A stretch of DNA of 64,000 nt from a virus: positions 1 to 64,000 of the IMG/VR virus record IMGVR_UViG_3300026488_000011; one strand, 5' to 3'. The notes beneath the pieces were generated by a model. The model ran no database searches. It was not told where the DNA came from and saw only the letters and a program-made list of their open reading frames with translations. A program made the position numbers and the translations under genes. Shown one piece after another: positions 5,171-52,150 of this stretch (positions are counted from its first letter, which is position 1; every line of letters begins with the position of its first letter).

Positions 5171-5635
5171 CTATGTGTTTTTATCAGTAAGAGTAAAGTA
5201 GGACACGCTAGCTATGCCTGACTTATCTGTATCTATCTTGACTGTCAGATTGCTTAAATCTACTTCCGGATCATCAAAGAACTCATACGCGTTGGTTAGG
5301 TTCTTATCTTCGTCAAATAGTCTAACTACTACTAGGTTATTAATAAAATAGCTATCCTCCATAGCAATAGGAGGTTTAGAAAGTTTAAATACGCCGTTAG
5401 TCACTAAACACTTTTCTGTAACAGGTTTGAAGTTAAACTCTGGTGACACTTTAATACCTTCGAAATATAATGCTTTTAATAGATCTACTACCTTATTGCA
5501 ATTATATTTAGAATTAAAGTATTCCACTAAGCCCTCTATAGTGTGTATATTTCTTTCTTTCATTACGTTTGATATCTCTATAATATCCTGTGCTGTAAAT
5601 AAGATACCGTCTTTACATATGTTAGGTAATGCCAT
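5171..5635 (-). CDS. Hypothetical protein, 154 aa
   Basis: Not recognised. ATG at 5635 behind AAGGA. Residues 1-70 are helical, and the second half reads as alternating beta strands (YFINNLVVVRLFDEDK, SNLTVKIDTDKSGIASVSYF), which would suit a small structural or fibre-accessory protein. It lies directly upstream of the fibre-like gene in the same direction. A virion role is only an inference from that position. Confidence 0.65.
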   Translation of the reverse strand: MALPNICKDGILFTAQDIIEISNVMKERNIHTIEGLVEYFNSKYNCNKVVDLLKALYFEGIKVSPEFNFKPVTEKCLVTNGVFKLSKPPIAMEDSYFINNLVVVRLFDEDKNLTNAYEFFDDPEVDLSNLTVKIDTDKSGIASVSYFTLTDKNT

Positions 5636-6831: not shown

Positions 6832-8343
6832 TTATATAGGTTTTTTATAGTTTAAGACTCTAAAGTTTTTACCTTGGTCTTGGAAGTACTTTAGACGATT
6901 TTTATCGTACTTTCTATGTTGTTTTATATCAGGAGTCCATACATAGACAAAGAGTACATCTTTGTCTTTTAAATCCCTTAATCTACCTATGGTTTGCTTA
7001 TTAGCATTAGGAGAGTCTATAGCTACGGTTTGGATTACAGTAGTGAGATTAGGAATGTCTACTGCAGTACCTGAGCTGAGTATAGTGGACACTATAATGT
7101 CTGAATCCATTAGTACGTTGTAATCTTCTTCGGCGTTGTATTTTTCTATCTTTAGAGTCTTATCATCGATGGTGTTTCTTAGATGATCTCTGATAGTTTT
7201 ACACATGTTTACCGTACCTGCAAATATCAGACACTTATCTCCGGGAGATCTCCTTTTGAGATAGAATTCTTTAGTAAGGAGTTCTATCATTTTTAGATAG
7301 TTTTCTAACATATCAGAGTTTCTAAATAGGGAGTTTTCATACTCAGCCTGGCTATATCCAAATCCTTTATCATATCTCACTCTCTTTGGATTAGAGAGAT
7401 AATATTTTACAGATAGTACATTTATATACCTGTTTACGTTTTCTTCTCTGAGACGCTTCTCAGAGGGGAATATGAGTTCATACATTCTTCTAGTCCTACC
7501 GTCCCTGGCTTCTAGGGTAGCAGTGAGGCCTATAAACTTTCCTACGTTTATAAAGAGCATAGATCTTACTACGTTGTGAAACTCTTGATGAGATTCATCG
7601 TTTATCAATAATCCAAAATCCAGTGTCTCTGCCAAAAGATGAGGACCTACCGGATATGTAAAAGTTTCGTCTATGTTTAACCATTCCTTTATATAGTTAT
7701 TCATAGTGGAGAGTGAGAAGATATAACATTTTATACTATCTCTCTCTTCATCACTGTACGAGAGTAGTTTTCTAAGACTATCTCCTCCTTGGACTACATA
7801 AATTTCTTCTTTCTTAACATCGGTAAGAGTGGTGATGTCAGAAATCCACTTGTCTATATAAGTAGGCAATATCAAAATAGCAAATCTCTTTTTTAATCTA
7901 GTTGCTATTTCAGCAGCTATCACAGTCTTACCCCTACCTGGTTTTAAGTTAATTAGATTAATAGGATCATCACTGTTTATTACCTTTTCAATAATTTCTT
8001 TTTGATAATCCCTTAGCTCAAATTCATAGATTGTATTTATATCTATGTCCTTACCTTCGACAGGAGGTACTTCTTCAATGACTGGTTCTTCGCCTAGTCT
8101 GGTCCTTATTTCATAAAGGACTTCCCCGAATGCATTAATAGGATACCTCAAGACCTGATTTCTCCAATCTATTACGAAAAACTCTTTATCCTTTTCGATT
8201 TTTCTTTTCTTTGTTCTTCTGTCAAATTTACCATATTTGAAAGTAACTAAATCGTTATGTAGGAAAATCATTTTACTCAGCAGCTTATCAAACATTTCAC
8301 TAGCAACTGTTATAAATAGCTTATATTTTTTTACATTAATCAT
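6832..8343 (-). CDS. SF2 DNA helicase, UvsW-like
   Basis: Superfamily 2 helicase of 503 residues. Helicase motifs in order: Q-like LRDYQ (residue 111), Walker A KPGRGKT (134-140), motif Ia ILPT, motif II NDESH (248-252), motif III LTAT (273-276), and near residues 430-460 motif V SSGTAVDIPN and motif VI QTIGRLRD. An N-terminal part of about 100 residues precedes the ATPase, as in T4 UvsW-type enzymes. These proteins unwind branched DNA and drive recombination-dependent replication and fork repair. Start: ATG 8343 has AAAGGAG; the ATG at 8370 lacks one. It is monocistronic, with a perfect TATATTAC 40 bases upstream and a terminator downstream. The motif II variant DESH replaces DEAH or DEXH. 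Helicase assignment is firm; the exact role is inferred. Confidence 0.9.
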   Translation of the reverse strand: MINVKKYKLFITVASEMFDKLLSKMIFLHNDLVTFKYGKFDRRTKKRKIEKDKEFFVIDWRNQVLRYPINAFGEVLYEIRTRLGEEPVIEEVPPVEGKDIDINTIYEFELRDYQKEIIEKVINSDDPINLINLKPGRGKTVIAAEIATRLKKRFAILILPTYIDKWISDITTLTDVKKEEIYVVQGGDSLRKLLSYSDEERDSIKCYIFSLSTMNNYIKEWLNIDETFTYPVGPHLLAETLDFGLLINDESHQEFHNVVRSMLFINVGKFIGLTATLEARDGRTRRMYELIFPSEKRLREENVNRYINVLSVKYYLSNPKRVRYDKGFGYSQAEYENSLFRNSDMLENYLKMIELLTKEFYLKRRSPGDKCLIFAGTVNMCKTIRDHLRNTIDDKTLKIEKYNAEEDYNVLMDSDIIVSTILSSGTAVDIPNLTTVIQTVAIDSPNANKQTIGRLRDLKDKDVLFVYVWTPDIKQHRKYDKNRLKYFQDQGKNFRVLNYKKPI

Positions 8344-8382
8344 TTTTATCTCCTTTTTTTGTAGAGTCATTACGTCATATTA

Positions 8383-8390
8383 GTAATATA
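8383..8390 (-). promoter_or_regulatory. Promoter motif TATATTAC
   Basis: Perfect minus-strand TATATTAC 40 bases before the helicase start codon; matches the published phiKZ early-promoter core. Confidence 0.6.
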
Positions 8391-8406
8391 GGGATAAAAA
8401 TGACTG

Positions 8407-8432
8407 GGTATGAGGAGATCTCTCCTCATACC
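8407..8432 (-). terminator. Terminator hairpin
   Basis: Perfect inverted repeat of 12 bases per arm immediately after the 8433-8924 gene. Confidence 0.8.
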
Positions 8433-8924
8433 TTATCCTAACATTATTTGTCTAATGTTTCGTTGTTCCAGGCTACGTATTAAAGCATTTCTGCTTACAC
8501 CGAATAACCTACATAAGTTTCTGACATATGACTTCATGTTGTTGTTAAGCTCTCTTCTTTTGTCGTTTTCTGACAAGAGAGGATTGTTTTCTAACATTTG
8601 CAGTTTTCTCATATATCTACTGGTTAAACTTAATAGTATGGATAACTGGTTCTTTCTATCCATTACGTAATAGATATACATACCGTCTAGGATCAGTATG
8701 GTCCCTGAGATCGCATATGTAAGATACATACCGAGCTCTTTATCCAGGTAGTTCATCACGACTGGTAAGATCATCAACATTAATGCTAGTAACCCTACAC
8801 CTAACCAAAATTTAGTTTTGTATGTTTGTAAAGCTCTATCGGCTTCGTTCATGACGTAGTTTAAATAACCAATTACGTCATCGATGCCTTTATTCTTTAG
8901 GAACTCCTCTAATCTAGTTTTCAT
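8433..8924 (-). CDS. Small two-TM membrane protein
   Basis: 163 residues with two membrane segments, about residues 40-60 (FWLGVGLLALMLMILPVVM) and 67-88 (MYLTYAISGTILILDGMYIY), separated by a short loop. Both ends are charged and probably cytoplasmic; the C-terminal 70 residues are basic and helical. ATG 8924 overlaps the stop of the preceding gene (ATGA), so the two are coupled. Layout is similar to the neighbouring gene product although sequence identity is low. Possible roles are holin-like, superinfection exclusion or membrane remodelling; none is shown. Confidence 0.7.
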   Translation of the reverse strand: MKTRLEEFLKNKGIDDVIGYLNYVMNEADRALQTYKTKFWLGVGLLALMLMILPVVMNYLDKELGMYLTYAISGTILILDGMYIYYVMDRKNQLSILLSLTSRYMRKLQMLENNPLLSENDKRRELNNNMKSYVRNLCRLFGVSRNALIRSLEQRNIRQIMLG

Positions 8925-40648: not shown

Positions 40649-40678
40649 ATCCACATGAGTCGTATGACTCATGTGGAT
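40649..40678. terminator. Bidirectional terminator
   Basis: 13-bp perfect stem with GTAT loop between convergent genes ending at 40646 and 40669. Confidence 0.85.
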
Positions 40679-41241
40679 ACCATATTCTCTATTATATAAT
40701 TAGCTAACAGTTTTACTTCTTCATTTGTCTTGGTTAAATTTCCTCTGTGATTATTAATATTAATATCTGGTTTAATCTTATCTACATCATATCTTATTCC
40801 ATTTGCGCCGCATGTGCTAATATCTGAGTTTACTTTTACTATTAGCGATTTGAGTGTTCCATCTTTTAGCACATGATACTCAGGTATAAATCTTAAATCC
40901 GGTATTACAACTACGTCGACATCTCTTTTTAGAGACTCTTCTACTAAAATTCTAGCAAAGATGTCTTGACCTAATTTACTCCTTAGACCTTCAGCATATC
41001 TTATTATGGCTTCTCTGGTGGTGATTATCTCTGCCCCAAAACCCACTAGTACATTATCGTTTTTCATCTTTTCTAAAACGATAGGATCAACTCTAAAAGA
41101 TTTAGCAACCATTTCCTTTAATGGTCTAGCTAATGAATCATAGTAGACTTTATAACCTGCATTCCTTAGATGTTTGGTTAACATGGTAGCTACGGTGTCT
41201 TTACCACAACGATCGTAACCTGTAAATGCTATAAATATCAT
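40669..41241 (-). CDS. Deoxynucleoside monophosphate kinase
   Basis: 190-residue P-loop kinase. Walker A GYDRCGKDTVAT (8-19) with the GKDT form typical of phage dNMP kinases (T4 gp1 and relatives) and dephospho-CoA-kinase-like folds; a lid/base segment with REAIIRYAEGLRSKLGQD (about 78-95, cf. the RxLLQxxGtexxR segment of relatives); then VVIPDLRFIPEYHVL (Walker B-like DxRF). It phosphorylates dNMPs to dNDPs to feed phage DNA synthesis. Start ATG 41241 behind AAAGGA. It is last in a minus-strand run after small unknown genes and near the DNA polymerase gene. Confidence 0.85.
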   Translation of the reverse strand: MIFIAFTGYDRCGKDTVATMLTKHLRNAGYKVYYDSLARPLKEMVAKSFRVDPIVLEKMKNDNVLVGFGAEIITTREAIIRYAEGLRSKLGQDIFARILVEESLKRDVDVVVIPDLRFIPEYHVLKDGTLKSLIVKVNSDISTCGANGIRYDVDKIKPDININNHRGNLTKTNEEVKLLANYIIENMVST

Positions 41242-42396: not shown

Positions 42397-42738
42397 TTAG
42401 ATACTTGGTAATCTACTGCGATATGAGGAATATCTAAAATTCTTATTATTCAGCGTCTCGATAGCAGAAAACATAAATCTGTTAAACTTATCACATTTCT
42501 TAAATCTTAATAGATAAGGAAACTTATCCTTTATCTTTTTTCGTTCTTGCCTGGAATTAATATTACTCTCTACCTCATCCATAGCACTTAATTCTTCTTG
42601 GGTTAGATATTTCTTTAAAGATTCTCGTCCCCATACTTTAGCACGTGTTAGGACTCTAAGATTCTTATCCAGTAATCTAATTGTATAAATATCAGTATCA
42701 TTGTTTTTAGTAACTAGTTTAAAAGCTGTTTTAAACAT
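42397..42738 (-). CDS. Small basic hypothetical protein, 113 aa
   Basis: Not recognised. Start ATG 42738 behind AAGGAGG immediately after the frameshift ORF stop. Very basic (Lys and Arg throughout, C-terminus YRSSYRSRLPSI), suggesting nucleic-acid contact. It shares the operon with the DNA polymerase-linked ORF. Confidence 0.65.
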   Translation of the reverse strand: MFKTAFKLVTKNNDTDIYTIRLLDKNLRVLTRAKVWGRESLKKYLTQEELSAMDEVESNINSRQERKKIKDKFPYLLRFKKCDKFNRFMFSAIETLNNKNFRYSSYRSRLPSI

Positions 42739-43137
42739 TTATTCCTCCTTAAATCCATTTAAGATATAACAGATAGCTCTGGCTTGATTAATAGGCGTTA
42801 CACCAAACATATCTGTAATGGTTTTATCTTTTGCCTTTTCTTTTATTTCTTCTAGCAACTCTGGTTTCTCTTTAAAATACTCTACCCATAGTTCTACGTA
42901 TTCTTTAAATAACTCTTGTTCGGACTTATTATTTAGAGGGGGTTTGTCTTTAGCTTCTTTCCAGTGGCTAACTTTACCTCTATAACCTTTTATATCTAAC
43001 TGATAAATCTCTTCAATGGACCTACCGTGATATCTTGTTAGACGAGCATAAAGAGCTGAATATCGTTTATCCCCTTTACTACTGCATTCGTAATAGGGTT
43101 CTCCTCTCTTAACTCTCCTAGCCCATCTGTAAATTAC
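42739..43137 (-). CDS. Start-less ORF fused to DNA polymerase by probable -1 frameshift
   Basis: An intact 132-codon reading frame lies directly after the polymerase stop. From the in-frame stop at 43159 down to 42856 it has no ATG, GTG or TTG, yet it encodes a well-formed protein: SSKGDKRYSALYARL, then GRSIEEIYQLDIKGYRG, then KSEQELFKEYVELW and TDMFGVTPINQARAICYILN. I recognise this as a family of small conserved phage proteins of unknown function whose members I recall starting near the KKVIYRW segment. The polymerase ends GAA AAA AAG TAA; slipping back one base on A AAA AAG enters this frame exactly. Expression is therefore probably as a C-terminal extension of the polymerase, about 854 residues in total. 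A homopolymer sequencing error or an unusual start codon would be the alternatives. Confidence 0.7.
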   Translation of the reverse strand, partial: VIYRWARRVKRGEPYYECSSKGDKRYSALYARLTRYHGRSIEEIYQLDIKGYRGKVSHWKEAKDKPPLNNKSEQELFKEYVELWVEYFKEKPELLEEIKEKAKDKTITDMFGVTPINQARAICYILNGFKEE

Positions 43138-45302
43138 TTTTTTTCTTCTACTCCATTGTCAATTAGATCTATAACTTTTAATCCAGGTTTAATGTAATAC
43201 CCTAATGAGTTTAGGATCATGTATAAGACATTACAGTTATCTTTTACAACTTTGTCTATATCTATTACTGACATAATCTCTTCTGGGAATCCTTTGTTAT
43301 ATAGGTTTACTAATGGAAACTTAAATGTCTTTATTTCTGACTTGTTGTATTTTTTAAGGAACTCTTCAAATCTCTGCTTAAGCTCATTGTCTTTTATAGA
43401 GTCCAAGAAGTTTTTCATATCTGTTTTATTATTAATAGTCGTAGGAATTTTAAGAGCCATATATGTAGGCTCAGGAGCATGACCGTACTTAGGTGCAAAC
43501 ACTTCTTCCCATAGCAAGTATTGTAGATATGGTGTTTTAGAAATATCTGGTTCTTTATACGCATTAGCTTCTTTAATTTTCTCTAACTTCAATACTTCCG
43601 GAGAACCTTCTTGTATTTTAGTAATTATATGTTTCTCCATGTCTGCTACTTTCTTCACATATTTACGTAGTGATATTTTCTTGTTACTACCTACCTCACT
43701 CATAATCTCCATCATCATTTCGTCTGCTAACTTCCTTACTGGTCCATACGCAAATGATGCAATAAGATGTACTCCTTTCTTTTCTAAATCAGGTTCTTTA
43801 AACACGTTACCTTCCTGTATTCTCACGTTAGCGTAATAGTGTTTAGATACATCTGTATTTACAAATACATCCCAGAAAAACTCATTCTTCATTTCTAAGT
43901 TTTTAGCAGCGTCATAATCTAAGTTCATATTGGCTCCTAGGAGCTTAATATAGTGGTCGATTGCCTGCGTCGTAAATGTCATAATTGCTGCCGTAATGGA
44001 TACCGCGTCTTTATTAAATACCATCTGACCATCATTATACCACTCTACCCAGTTTTGATATGTAGCACAGGTAGAATCCGTATCTGATAGCACGATTACT
44101 TCTCTTAGCATATCTTTTATATATGCGATCGAAATTGGAAACACTTTAGTAACAAAAAATGTTTTTATCAAGTCTTCTTTTTCCTGGAACGACTGCATTA
44201 GTCTGTTAGCGGTAGAAGCTAATATCTCTACCGTGTCATCGTCTAACGCGTCTTCTCCATCTAAGACATATTTTCTTCCTCTCATTAAGTCAGATTCTAC
44301 ATGTAGTAGTAAGTTAGTAATCCAGCTAGGTATCGATTTTAGATAGTCTCTAGGATTATCTACTTTGATCGGTTTATACTTAATTATATCGTCTAACCAA
44401 CCCTTCATGAATTCAGGATTTAACTCCCGTAATTGGAATAGATCATTTACGTATGCAATAGCTGCTAATTCGAATCCCGATAGTGATTTCAGAAATTTAT
44501 ATATCTCTCTTTCCTTTTCTGTATGCTTCCAGTACGGTCTTGTATTTTTCTTAATTACATTTTCCATCACATAGTCAGGTGTAGGAATAGTAAGTCTATA
44601 CTTCCTTATTATTTCTTCTATCTTATCTACGTCTACTGAGGCTAATATAGCGGTAAGATGATTTAATGTTACTTCAGGGTTTCTATAGTGTCTATTACCG
44701 GATATCATTGATTCAGAGATGGCATTTCCTATACCAGCTACACATCTGGTAATTGAAGTAAGCGTATAATGTGCTGATGGATTATATAACACCGTACCGG
44801 CACTAGCATAAGCTCCTGATAGAGAGTTGTTTTTAATCTTCATGGATTTTTGCAATGTATTGTGGTAATTATGTTTTTCTATATCTCCATCCATTTTGTA
44901 TTTAAAAGCTAGTTTTTTATGTTTAGATCTTAAAGCAATGTTATCGCTAATAAATTCTGCATGTAGAGATTTTTTCTTTTTAGGATTAAAGTAAACTGTA
45001 AATGATGGTACTATTATATCTCCTTGTTGTTTAACATAGTTGATATAACCGATTAGTGTAGTGATTTGATTATTTAGAATCTTACCATCCAATGTTCTTT
45101 CTCTAAACTTAACTCTAGGGTTTTTTATTTTACCTTGTTCTTTAAACTCTTGCAATTTCTTTTTTACTAGTTTTTTAGATTCTGGAAATGGTATATCTTT
45201 TTTCTTAGTTATATAAATAGCTGCTTGTTCTATGTAATCACTTATTGGATCCATATGTGGTTTATAATCTTCAGGTCTTAGCTTAAATATATCTGACATC
45301 AT
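43134..45302 (-). CDS. Family B DNA polymerase, palm/C-terminal part
   Basis: 722 residues. Motif B of family B polymerases is visible at 152-164 (KSMKIKNNSLSG, cf. KxxxNSxYG), preceded by the typical basic helix SDNIALRSKHKKLAFKYKMD, and motif C at 405-410 (LSDTDS). Motif C supplies metal-binding Asp residues and motif B binds the incoming nucleotide. No motif A (SLYP type) and no 3'-5' exonuclease motifs are recognisable, so these may lie in a separate gene, as in a split polymerase, or be very divergent. There is a long insertion between motifs B and C. Tandem ATGs at 45302/45299 follow AAAGGA. The 3' end carries an A AAA AAG slippery site just before TAA. The RNA element copy 2 lies upstream on the other strand. 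Confidence 0.8.
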   Translation of the reverse strand: MMSDIFKLRPEDYKPHMDPISDYIEQAAIYITKKKDIPFPESKKLVKKKLQEFKEQGKIKNPRVKFRERTLDGKILNNQITTLIGYINYVKQQGDIIVPSFTVYFNPKKKKSLHAEFISDNIALRSKHKKLAFKYKMDGDIEKHNYHNTLQKSMKIKNNSLSGAYASAGTVLYNPSAHYTLTSITRCVAGIGNAISESMISGNRHYRNPEVTLNHLTAILASVDVDKIEEIIRKYRLTIPTPDYVMENVIKKNTRPYWKHTEKEREIYKFLKSLSGFELAAIAYVNDLFQLRELNPEFMKGWLDDIIKYKPIKVDNPRDYLKSIPSWITNLLLHVESDLMRGRKYVLDGEDALDDDTVEILASTANRLMQSFQEKEDLIKTFFVTKVFPISIAYIKDMLREVIVLSDTDSTCATYQNWVEWYNDGQMVFNKDAVSITAAIMTFTTQAIDHYIKLLGANMNLDYDAAKNLEMKNEFFWDVFVNTDVSKHYYANVRIQEGNVFKEPDLEKKGVHLIASFAYGPVRKLADEMMMEIMSEVGSNKKISLRKYVKKVADMEKHIITKIQEGSPEVLKLEKIKEANAYKEPDISKTPYLQYLLWEEVFAPKYGHAPEPTYMALKIPTTINNKTDMKNFLDSIKDNELKQRFEEFLKKYNKSEIKTFKFPLVNLYNKGFPEEIMSVIDIDKVVKDNCNVLYMILNSLGYYIKPGLKVIDLIDNGVEEKK
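43137..43143 (-). other. Candidate -1 ribosomal frameshift site A AAA AAG
   Basis: In the polymerase frame the codons are GAA AAA AAG TAA. A AAA AAG is the heptamer used in E. coli dnaX. A GGAG lies about 9 bases upstream, like the dnaX stimulatory Shine-Dalgarno. GTAAT...ATTAC and GGG...CCC complementarity within the 45 bases downstream could give a weak stimulatory stem. Zero-frame termination is immediate. Confidence 0.6.
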
Positions 45303-50096: not shown

Positions 50097-50116
50097 ATAC
50101 GGATTAAGATCCGTAT
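50097..50116 (-). terminator. Terminator hairpin
   Basis: 8-bp perfect stem containing the stop codon of the 605-residue gene. Confidence 0.65.
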
Positions 50117-51921
50117 CCGAACATTCCCATTCCTGGCATTGCGAATTGTGGTCCTTGTGGTCCTGCGTATCCAAAGTTAACTCCACCAACTTTAGCTCCA
50201 GCGTAAGCTGCTGCAACTGCTTGAAGATTACTGTAGCTAGTAAACTCTATCTTACCAATATCTGCTCTTGGATTTAATCCAGCTGCGATTGCTGCTTCTA
50301 CTAGTTCTTTATAGAATGCTCCGTTTAGAGTCACTCTCACTGCCTTACCTGTAATTACCGCGTTTGGAATCAATGCGTTTATTACTTCTAATTTTAGTAG
50401 GTAAGGATCTTTCCCAGTGATGTGCGCAGGAGCATTACTATCGATCCATTTAAGCACTAAATCCATATCTTTAGCATGTTCTAAGACATATGCTAAATCC
50501 ACTTCTCGGATGTCTCTCTTAGTACCAGTGTTATCGATCCATTCTCCTACTGGCACCACAATAGTAGAGGCAGCTACTTGTCTGTTAGCGAATGCGTGTC
50601 CAGTTAGTGATTCAGCGATAGCAATAATTTCTTCATTAGCAGCTTCTGCTGCTCCTGGTACTGCTAGTGCTGCAAATGGTGCTTCGATACCGAAATTCGG
50701 ACCATAATATTCTACTTCCACAGCGAATGCTTTTTCAAACTCCACTGCGTTAGCTAAGAAATTGAGTACTTCATTTTCGTTCAATTTACCGTCTTTGAGT
50801 TTGATCTTTTTACCGAATTGCGCATTAGGTGTTTTAGGATCAACTACTGTTTTAGTTAACACATTGAGTACACCTAAATCTCTAGGCACGTTCATTAATA
50901 GTTGATAATGCATGCTTTGGTTGTTAAAGATGCTGCTATTAATAATGTTTAATAGTATCATTTCAGCTGTAGGTCTGAACGCATGAAATTCGTTCAATAT
51001 TACTAGAGGCATTATCATTGTTCTAGGAGGCTGCCCAGGTATATTAGCAATCATATCTGGCAAATACTCTAGATAACCTACCTCAGTAGTCTGAGGTTTT
51101 CTTATATTTCCTCCTATTAAACTTTGCGCTCTATTAAATACTGCTACTAGATCTAGTTCAAAATCAGTTCTAATAGGTTTACCGACAGCGTTTTGAAATA
51201 CACCCATATTGAATGTTGTGTCTATAACTAATTGTCCTTGTTTTTGGGCAATTTTACTAGTATATGTTCTCAAGTCCAGGTAATTTAAGACACTGTTTTC
51301 GATGTAAAGTTTTGCTAGATTGTTGTTTAGCGCTACTACTGTAGCCGGAATACCAACTTGTTCTGGATCTTGATCGTGTGGCACTACCAGACCTTCAGTA
51401 GGTCTTAAGTTGTCTTCAGTCGTGCCATACGCATCCATCAACACTCTCTTAATAAGGGATTGTAGATATGTATCTGCAAATGTGTCAGCTGCTACATAAA
51501 TTAAACTTGATCTTTTGAATTTAATCTCTTCTAGTATATGTGCGATTTGTACAGGTTTTCTACCTGTCGCTTCTAACAGTATTACGTGGAAGTATACTTT
51601 AGGGCTATTGCTAGCCTGTGTTGCTACTATAACATAACTGTACGGTAGATCTTGGAACTGTGTATCTTTGTCTAACTTAAATAATCTAGTTCTGATCTCT
51701 ACCCCTTTTTTAACTAGAGGTTCTTTAATAGCCGGAACTTCTTTAGCTTTTTCTATAAATTTGTTTAAATATTCGCTACCTGTTCCTGGTACTAGGAACA
51801 TTGTTGCTCCGAAATCATCATCGTCGAAGCTTGCAGTTTGATTAACGTTTTGTTGTTGTTGCTCTTGTGCAACTTTTTCAGTTGTTTGTGTTGTCATTTT
51901 GCTTTCATCTCTTAAAGCCAT
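50104..51921 (-). CDS. Abundant phage structural or shell protein, 605 aa
   Basis: The frame is open up to 52035, but the ATG at 51921 has a strong AAAAGGAG and the upstream part is an untranslated hairpin leader. The protein is Ala, Val, Pro and Gly-rich with few rare codons, typical of the most abundant phage proteins. A disordered N-terminus (TTEKVAQEQQQQNVNQTASF) precedes the folded core (about 50-560: VYFHVILLEATGRKPVQIAH, LVAVFNRAQSLIGGNIRKP). The C-terminal tail GPQGPQFAMPGMGMFGYGS is flexible. Two promoter motifs (TATATTAC at 52151 and TATATTAT at 52040) and the long structured leader suggest very high expression. It could be the major capsid or sheath protein; size and flexible ends also fit a nuclear-shell protein such as chimallin. 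I cannot decide from sequence alone. Confidence 0.6.
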   Translation of the reverse strand: MALRDESKMTTQTTEKVAQEQQQQNVNQTASFDDDDFGATMFLVPGTGSEYLNKFIEKAKEVPAIKEPLVKKGVEIRTRLFKLDKDTQFQDLPYSYVIVATQASNSPKVYFHVILLEATGRKPVQIAHILEEIKFKRSSLIYVAADTFADTYLQSLIKRVLMDAYGTTEDNLRPTEGLVVPHDQDPEQVGIPATVVALNNNLAKLYIENSVLNYLDLRTYTSKIAQKQGQLVIDTTFNMGVFQNAVGKPIRTDFELDLVAVFNRAQSLIGGNIRKPQTTEVGYLEYLPDMIANIPGQPPRTMIMPLVILNEFHAFRPTAEMILLNIINSSIFNNQSMHYQLLMNVPRDLGVLNVLTKTVVDPKTPNAQFGKKIKLKDGKLNENEVLNFLANAVEFEKAFAVEVEYYGPNFGIEAPFAALAVPGAAEAANEEIIAIAESLTGHAFANRQVAASTIVVPVGEWIDNTGTKRDIREVDLAYVLEHAKDMDLVLKWIDSNAPAHITGKDPYLLKLEVINALIPNAVITGKAVRVTLNGAFYKELVEAAIAAGLNPRADIGKIEFTSYSNLQAVAAAYAGAKVGGVNFGYAGPQGPQFAMPGMGMFGYGS

Positions 51922-52150
51922 TTTCTTCTCCTTTTGGTTTTGTTTTTTTTTAAAGGCACTGATCAGTGTCTTATGACACGCAACTGTGTTAGACGCCAAC
52001 TCTTCTACACTTTGCTCAGAGGTAGTTCTGAGCAACTTAATAATATATTGGTTTAATTATTTTGGAATTAAACCAATAGTACCGCTAGGCGGTTCTTCTA
52101 TAGGTCTGAGTCCGAAGACCCAGACCTGATACCTGTTTGGTATCACATAA
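51922..52150 (-). promoter_or_regulatory. Multi-hairpin 5' leader
   Basis: The untranslated leader before ATG 51921 contains successive perfect hairpins: 52128-52144 (6 bp), 52102-52127 (7+3 bp with UUCG tetraloop on the minus strand), 52081-52093 (5 bp), 52047-52077 (12 bp), 52012-52035 (9 bp) and 51966-51979 (5 bp), plus a 12-base palindrome at 51957-51968 that competes with the last. A stretch of A residues and the ribosome site follow. Likely roles are mRNA stabilisation, control of translation or generation of a small RNA. Confidence 0.7.
52040..52047 (-). promoter_or_regulatory. Promoter-like motif TATATTAT inside the leader
   Basis: Minus-strand TATATTATTAAG, one mismatch from TATATTAC, about 120 bases before ATG 51921; overlaps the foot of the 12-bp hairpin. 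Confidence 0.4.

Follow-up and report, generated by a model that had tools for sequence, protein, structure and literature searches.

Results

The gene for the palm half of the polymerase ends on a slippery heptamer

In the stretch of viral DNA analysed here (64,000 nucleotides, referred to throughout as the window), the gene for one half of a split phage DNA polymerase ends on a slippery heptamer placed directly before its stop codon, and the overlapping -1 frame encodes a conserved domain. The likely reading, in which the slippage is inferred, is that a -1 frameshift expresses a NADAR-type domain on the polymerase. Frameshift expression of the extension, considered by itself, has very strong support, the slippage and its rate again being inferred and the predicted 854-residue product not having been observed. 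The features that bear on this reading are the following.

43134..45302, minus strand: palm (C-terminal) half of a split divergent family-B DNA polymerase, 722 aa zero-frame product (PF20286 divDNApol, E=3e-186; phrog_2927, E=1e-188)
43137..43143, minus strand: slippery heptamer A AAA AAG, in the zero-frame phase X XXY YYZ; the same heptamer is present in L007
43134..43136, minus strand: zero-frame stop codon TAA, immediately after the heptamer
43151..43154, minus strand: GGAG, 7 nt before the heptamer, a possible but unproven upstream Shine-Dalgarno stimulator
42739..43137, minus strand: -1 extension of 132 codons plus the stop TAA (42739-42741), very probably a NADAR-type domain (phrog_9995, E=5e-43; dN/dS 0.09; structure model pLDDT 96.9)
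42397..42738, minus strand: next gene, 113 aa, unknown function, with TAAGGAG 6 nt ahead of its ATG

The palm-half ORF (45302-43134, minus strand) terminates ...GTA GAA GAA AAA AAG TAA. The -1 frame is open from stop to stop over 139 codons (43158-42742), 132 of them past the shift, and closes with the stop at 42741-42739; its first ATG, GTG or TTG is a TTG at 42858, which is codon 101 of the open frame and the 94th past the shift. No ribosome site was found in the sequence at a usable distance from the extension's ATT (codon 9 of the open frame). The TAAGGAG and ATG of the next gene exemplify a normal start in this window, and the extension is without one. The heptamer, its phase, the stop, the open -1 frame and the missing start are thus all shown, and what is predicted from them is a fusion of 722 + 132 = 854 residues with the junction peptide EEKKVIYR. 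With regard to possible stimulators, the counterpart of GGAG in L007 is AAGGA at a similar position. Folding of the RNA past the heptamer revealed no convincing structure in the window and none that is conserved (z-scores of -1.2 for the window, 0.1 for L007 and -3.6 for Phabio).

A preliminary description of this locus had reported the ORF end GAA AAA AAG TAA with a dnaX-type heptamer, a -1 frame open for 132 codons with no ATG, GTG or TTG in its first 93, and products of 722 and 854 residues. The heptamer (in the correct phase), the open frame, the absent start codons and the residue counts all held, with the proviso that the fusion product remains unobserved. Two other points held in part: GGAG is present, at a spacing of 7 rather than about 9 bases, and the ORF, which had been called a DNA polymerase, comprises no more than the C-terminal (palm) half of a split one.

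The polymerase is split as in phiKZ

In profile searches, the divDNApol and phrog_2927 matches span nearly the full length of the palm-half ORF, in which we can also read what we take to be polymerase motifs B and C. Direct comparison of this ORF with phiKZ gp82 gave no detectable similarity, and family searches place gp82 in phrog_3011; the idea that the window polymerase is the orthologue of gp82 was rejected, as the comparison and the family searches together indicate two different halves of a split enzyme. The window genome has a phrog_3011 protein of its own with a family-B exonuclease domain (165751-167358 of the 185,491-base record). Since the palm-half ORF lacks similarity to gp82 and the genome has this separate phrog_3011 protein, the polymerase is split as in phiKZ, with a palm half (divDNApol) and an exonuclease half encoded elsewhere in the genome. 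In phiKZ, PHIKZ050 and PHIKZ082 both carry a DNA polymerase annotation.

The window phage belongs with the nucleus-forming, phiKZ-like giant phages, because its genome encodes a homologue of a phiKZ-type RNA polymerase subunit (E=1e-57) and a nuclear-shell homologue. The latter is a divergent chimallin at 50104-52035 (minus strand) that matches phrog_4795 with E=4e-24 and reaches 22 bits with the Pfam chimallin model, under that model's cut-off of 27. Elsewhere in the window, a small P-loop gene (40669-41241, minus strand) resembles phage deoxynucleoside monophosphate kinases and contains a DRCGKDT motif; L007 has the same gene at 8061-8639, and L123 and L124 have it downstream of their palm-half polymerase.

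The extension is conserved and under purifying selection

The -1 reading corresponds to phrog_9995, a family assignment that we regard as shown, and homologues occur in 107 phage records. On a separate contig, L007, where the polymerase is 67% identical, the seven As, the heptamer, the stop and the extension are all kept, which confirms indirectly that the run of seven As in the window is no artefact. Between the window and L007, dN/dS is 0.09 for the extension in its -1 frame and 0.16 for the polymerase; when the DNA of the extension is read in the polymerase frame, the value is 2.3. The extension is under purifying selection.

The heptamer also accompanies the domain. We collected 68 distinct palm-half ORF ends from viral contigs and looked for an in-phase heptamer within the last seven codons: it is present at a single end, which is also the one that the domain follows, and at no domain-free end in this set. 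A different solution is seen in L002 (5004-7607), where the domain and the palm half form a single in-frame ORF of 867 aa in the order opposite to that of the window, with a second AAGGAG-ATG at 5406 that is an internal start for the polymerase alone. Each of these arrangements, the -1 shift on either half of the polymerase and the L002 fusion, could yield polymerase with and without the domain, although this is inferred from sequence alone.

The same domain lies behind the exonuclease half in the phiKZ group

In phiKZ (gp82/82.1), PhiPA3, 201phi2-1, Phabio, PA1C, HPP-Temi, Viktualia, Noxifer and uncultivated relatives, the exonuclease half is followed in the -1 frame by a homologue of the domain. 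Most of them have C CCA AAG as their slip site, L050 has G GGA AAG, and Noxifer and L052 both have A AAA AAG, so that the letters of the heptamer vary among relatives while its X XXY YYZ property and its phase stay. The overlap is long in Noxifer and L052, where a heptamer would be expected by chance with a probability of ~0.3-0.4 each, and these two are less telling; most other members have a short overlap and a chance of <0.05. The lineages are related, and these figures do not describe independent trials. At the position where an independent start would lie, the members have ATT, ATA, ATG, GTG, GTA or ACA.

Public annotation covers no more than an inner part of the domain (phiKZ gp82.1 = PHIKZ082.1, KTN4_109) or leaves it out altogether (HUST_1, Wadjak 2, fMGyn-Pae01), and this is why the frameshift would have been missed. 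In PHIKZ082.1, KTN4_109, PA1C, Phabio_127 and similar cases, the annotated fragment begins at a chance internal start and often lacks the conserved glutamate region.

A tree built from 79 domains sets the window clade, to which the SLOG-fused L034 and the profile-positive L024 and L103 belong, apart from all others, the exonuclease-half clade included, with support of 100/99. The tree fits independent attachment of the domain to the two halves; this is inference only, given the short alignment and arbitrary root.

These comparisons bear on what had been claimed beforehand. The probable -1 frameshift is supported by the heptamer and stop in L007, the lack of a start codon and ribosome site, purifying selection, and the occurrence of the heptamer only with the domain. 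The view of the extension as well-conserved-looking held (107 records, dN/dS 0.09), and the domain, left unnamed at the time, is NADAR-like. On the question of whether the heptamer and the missing start are conserved among homologues, the heptamer is kept in -1 members, and a start codon is mostly absent, the exceptions being ATG in PhiPA3 and GTG in 201phi2-1. The statement that no such arrangement was known for a phage family B polymerase failed as to uniqueness, as phiKZ-group genomes have it, unannotated, on the other half.

Two further observations concern the exonuclease-half genes. In the sister group GAAAAGAAG clade (D6, Psa21), the domain is in a frame reached by -2 or +1 and not by -1. 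At the exonuclease-half ORF end of this group (L018, which is D6; L020, which is Psa21; L067, L081, L085, L095, L097, L099 and L100), GAA AAG AAG is kept in 9/9 and the start codon is not conserved, with GTG, TTG, CTG, ACG and TTC at the aligned place; a -2 slip of tRNA-Lys from AAG to AAA would fit and remains a possibility. Group I introns (Rfam RF00028) lie upstream of the frameshift site in the exonuclease-half gene of PhiPA3 (L011, 3414-3719) and HPP-Temi (L017, 3384-3719), and HPP-Temi also has an HNH endonuclease gene at its intron locus.

The domain is very probably a divergent NADAR-type domain

The window domain itself stays below the Pfam NADAR models in profile searches, and a search of the window genome with PF08719 gave no match. 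The pointer to its family comes from its relatives: L024 and L103 exceed the curated cut-off of Pfam NADAR-DarT1 (PF22397), and in the bacterial relative L115 and in L119 this profile is matched above cut-off over nearly the whole domain. The window domain is 45% identical to the profile-positive L115 over 87 residues. Four positions, E42, K50, K63 and D109, are invariant in 67-79 diverse members in and out of polymerase contexts, and they fit E88, K95, K115 and D171, which the E. coli C7 NADAR requires (PMC11543638); the pairing of K63 with K115 and of D109 with D171 is inferred from order and conservation. K50 is offset by one residue in the alignment to profile-positive relatives, as there is one extra residue between E42 and K50.

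Fusions are also seen. The domain is joined to a Macro domain in Bacillus sp. M6-12 (L119, 4899-5891) and to a SLOG (YAcAr) domain in a phage contig (L034, 3596-4381); a second phage contig (L082, 3596-4339) reads as a similar NADAR-SLOG (YAcAr) fusion, and in L113 there is a SLOG neighbour beside the domain. NADAR fusions of such kind have been described in jumbo phages (PMC7824862). The same domain further occurs, in many viral contigs, inside open frames of ~2400-2800 codons (L037, L041, L043, L049, L053, L076, L107 and others), where it is apparently one part of large multidomain proteins, as far as can be inferred without experiment from the reading frames.

The structure model of the extension domain is confident (pLDDT 96.9), but searching the PDB with it returned no significant match, and viral NADAR models align to it with TM 0.47-0.52 but E > 2. 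PADLOC and NCBIfam searches gave no usable match, DUF488-N3i matched weakly in three members, and a likeness to ribosomal protein L3 among PDB profile matches faded once the alignment was deepened. We conclude that membership of the NADAR superfamily is very likely. Because there is no significant match to a solved structure and the matches to viral NADAR models are weak, we refer to the domain as divergent NADAR-type and leave open whether it belongs to the YbiA-type fold.

Alternative explanations

After terminating at the polymerase stop, ribosomes could reinitiate at a non-standard start, such as codon 9 of the open frame (ATT), and make the extension as a separate protein. In favour of this, the L002 domain begins with an ATG at the place aligned to the window ATT, the ATG of PhiPA3 and the GTG of 201phi2-1 at that place are annotated starts, and free-standing copies of the domain exist in Schitoviridae, PAU and others. 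However, the aligned codon is ATT, ATA, ACA or GTA elsewhere, including the window, L007, phiKZ, HPP-Temi and Phabio, the window ATT has no ribosome site within usable reach, and a separate start would not account for the distribution of the in-phase heptamer, which stands before the stop in all -1 members and is missing from the palm-half genes that have no domain; we consider this explanation very unlikely. The same grade applies to transcriptional slippage on the seven-A run in the window lineage, which is suggested by the seven As followed by G in the window and L007 but is at odds with relatives that make the same frame change at sites with no long homopolymer (C CCA AAG or G GGA AAG) and with the fact that the conserved feature is the phase of the heptamer. 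An assembly or sequencing error that disguises a continuous fusion or two separate genes might be suspected of a homopolymer of A within a metagenomic contig, yet L007, a different contig with 67% polymerase identity, has the same run and frame relation, and the corresponding -1 relation recurs in many isolated, complete phage genomes, so this explanation is all but excluded.

What still counts against the frameshift model is the lack of direct evidence for the 854-residue product, the position of GGAG just 7 nt upstream and the want of a convincing downstream structure. It is also possible, though less likely than not, that frameshifting is real and that the domain has lost catalysis, serving as a binding module for DNA, ADP-ribose or processivity. 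The weak structural likeness to known NADARs, the extra residue between E42 and K50, and the fact that the domain can sit on either polymerase half and at either end, which suggests tethering, all favour this; against it, the residues that match NADAR catalysis are precisely the invariant ones in the 67-79 diverse members, and the Macro and SLOG fusions point to ADP-ribose chemistry.

Discussion

The arrangement we favour, a -1 frameshift that adds a NADAR-type domain to the palm half, can be compared with several known systems. In phiKZ gp82/gp82.1 and its homologues (phrog_3011 then phrog_9995), the domain likewise lies in -1 right after the heptamer and stop of a polymerase-half gene, but there it follows the exonuclease/motif A half and C CCA AAG, whereas in the window it follows the palm half and A AAA AAG; no frameshift is recorded in the public annotation of phiKZ. 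The E. coli dnaX gene (tau/gamma) shares A AAA AAG, the -1 shift and two products of a replication protein, although its shift truncates the protein and that of the window would extend it; relative to dnaX, no strong downstream stem-loop was found in the window, and its SD-like GGAG is closer to the heptamer. In the lambda G/GT tail-assembly chaperone, a -1 shift near the gene end also adds a conserved domain to part of the product, but the genes and function differ, being those of tail assembly and not of replication. The DarT1-associated NADAR antitoxins (PF22397) share the E, Q, K, D pattern, and relatives of the window domain match their profile directly; in contrast, the window-type domain is shorter (~120-130 aa), has no DarT neighbour that we could see and is joined to a DNA polymerase. 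Close to the C-terminus its acidic residue is a D, which it shares with the BC4488 group; phage gp30.3 is reported to have H there (PMC11125620).

In the mechanism we propose, some ribosomes at the end of the palm-half gene would shift by -1 on A AAA AAG and so escape the TAA that follows, and translation would give the 722-residue palm half together with an 854-residue form that carries the NADAR-type domain at its C-terminus. The tagged palm half would pair with the exonuclease half in a share of replisomes, where the tethered domain may act as an ADP-ribosyl glycohydrolase and remove ADP-ribose from guanines in DNA during replication; this would stop a host DarT1-type transferase from blocking phage replication. 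Guanine ADP-ribosylation in DNA is the DarT1 modification (PMC11543638), and guanine-ADP-ribose has been suggested as the target of phage NADARs (PMC11125620). Catalysis is inferred, and we lean only modestly towards active DNA de-ADP-ribosylation by the domain. Whether defence against DarT1-like toxins is its main purpose could be argued equally well either way, an inference weakened by the absence of a known DarT1 from the host, which is itself unknown.

In the open-access literature searched, no paper reports a frameshift in phiKZ polymerase genes or links a NADAR to these genes or to phiKZ, and a prior description elsewhere is not excluded. Iyer and colleagues described separate NADARs in jumbo phages as well as a small SH3-fold gene beside these polymerases (PMC7824862); their passages on these genes make no mention of a coupling between the two. 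Frameshifting, NADARs and split phiKZ polymerases are each already known, and it is their combination that is likely to be new.

A bolder reading, which we put forward as falling a little short of probable, is that the split polymerase of nucleus-forming phages has acquired NADAR-type hydrolases on at least two occasions, once per half and both times by -1 frameshift, besides one in-frame fusion that has an internal start. Only some of the replisomes would then carry a DNA de-ADP-ribosylating enzyme. This would amount to replication-coupled anti-DarT1 counter-defence, unrecognised in phiKZ. The similar two-product outcomes that these different routes would give suggest that selection keeps both tagged and untagged polymerase. 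If the reading is true, the replicative polymerase of the best-studied nucleus-forming phages would have a conserved programmed frameshift, the phage replisome would be tied directly to the repair of guanine ADP-ribosylation, a lesion known from bacterial defence, and both would be testable in phiKZ.
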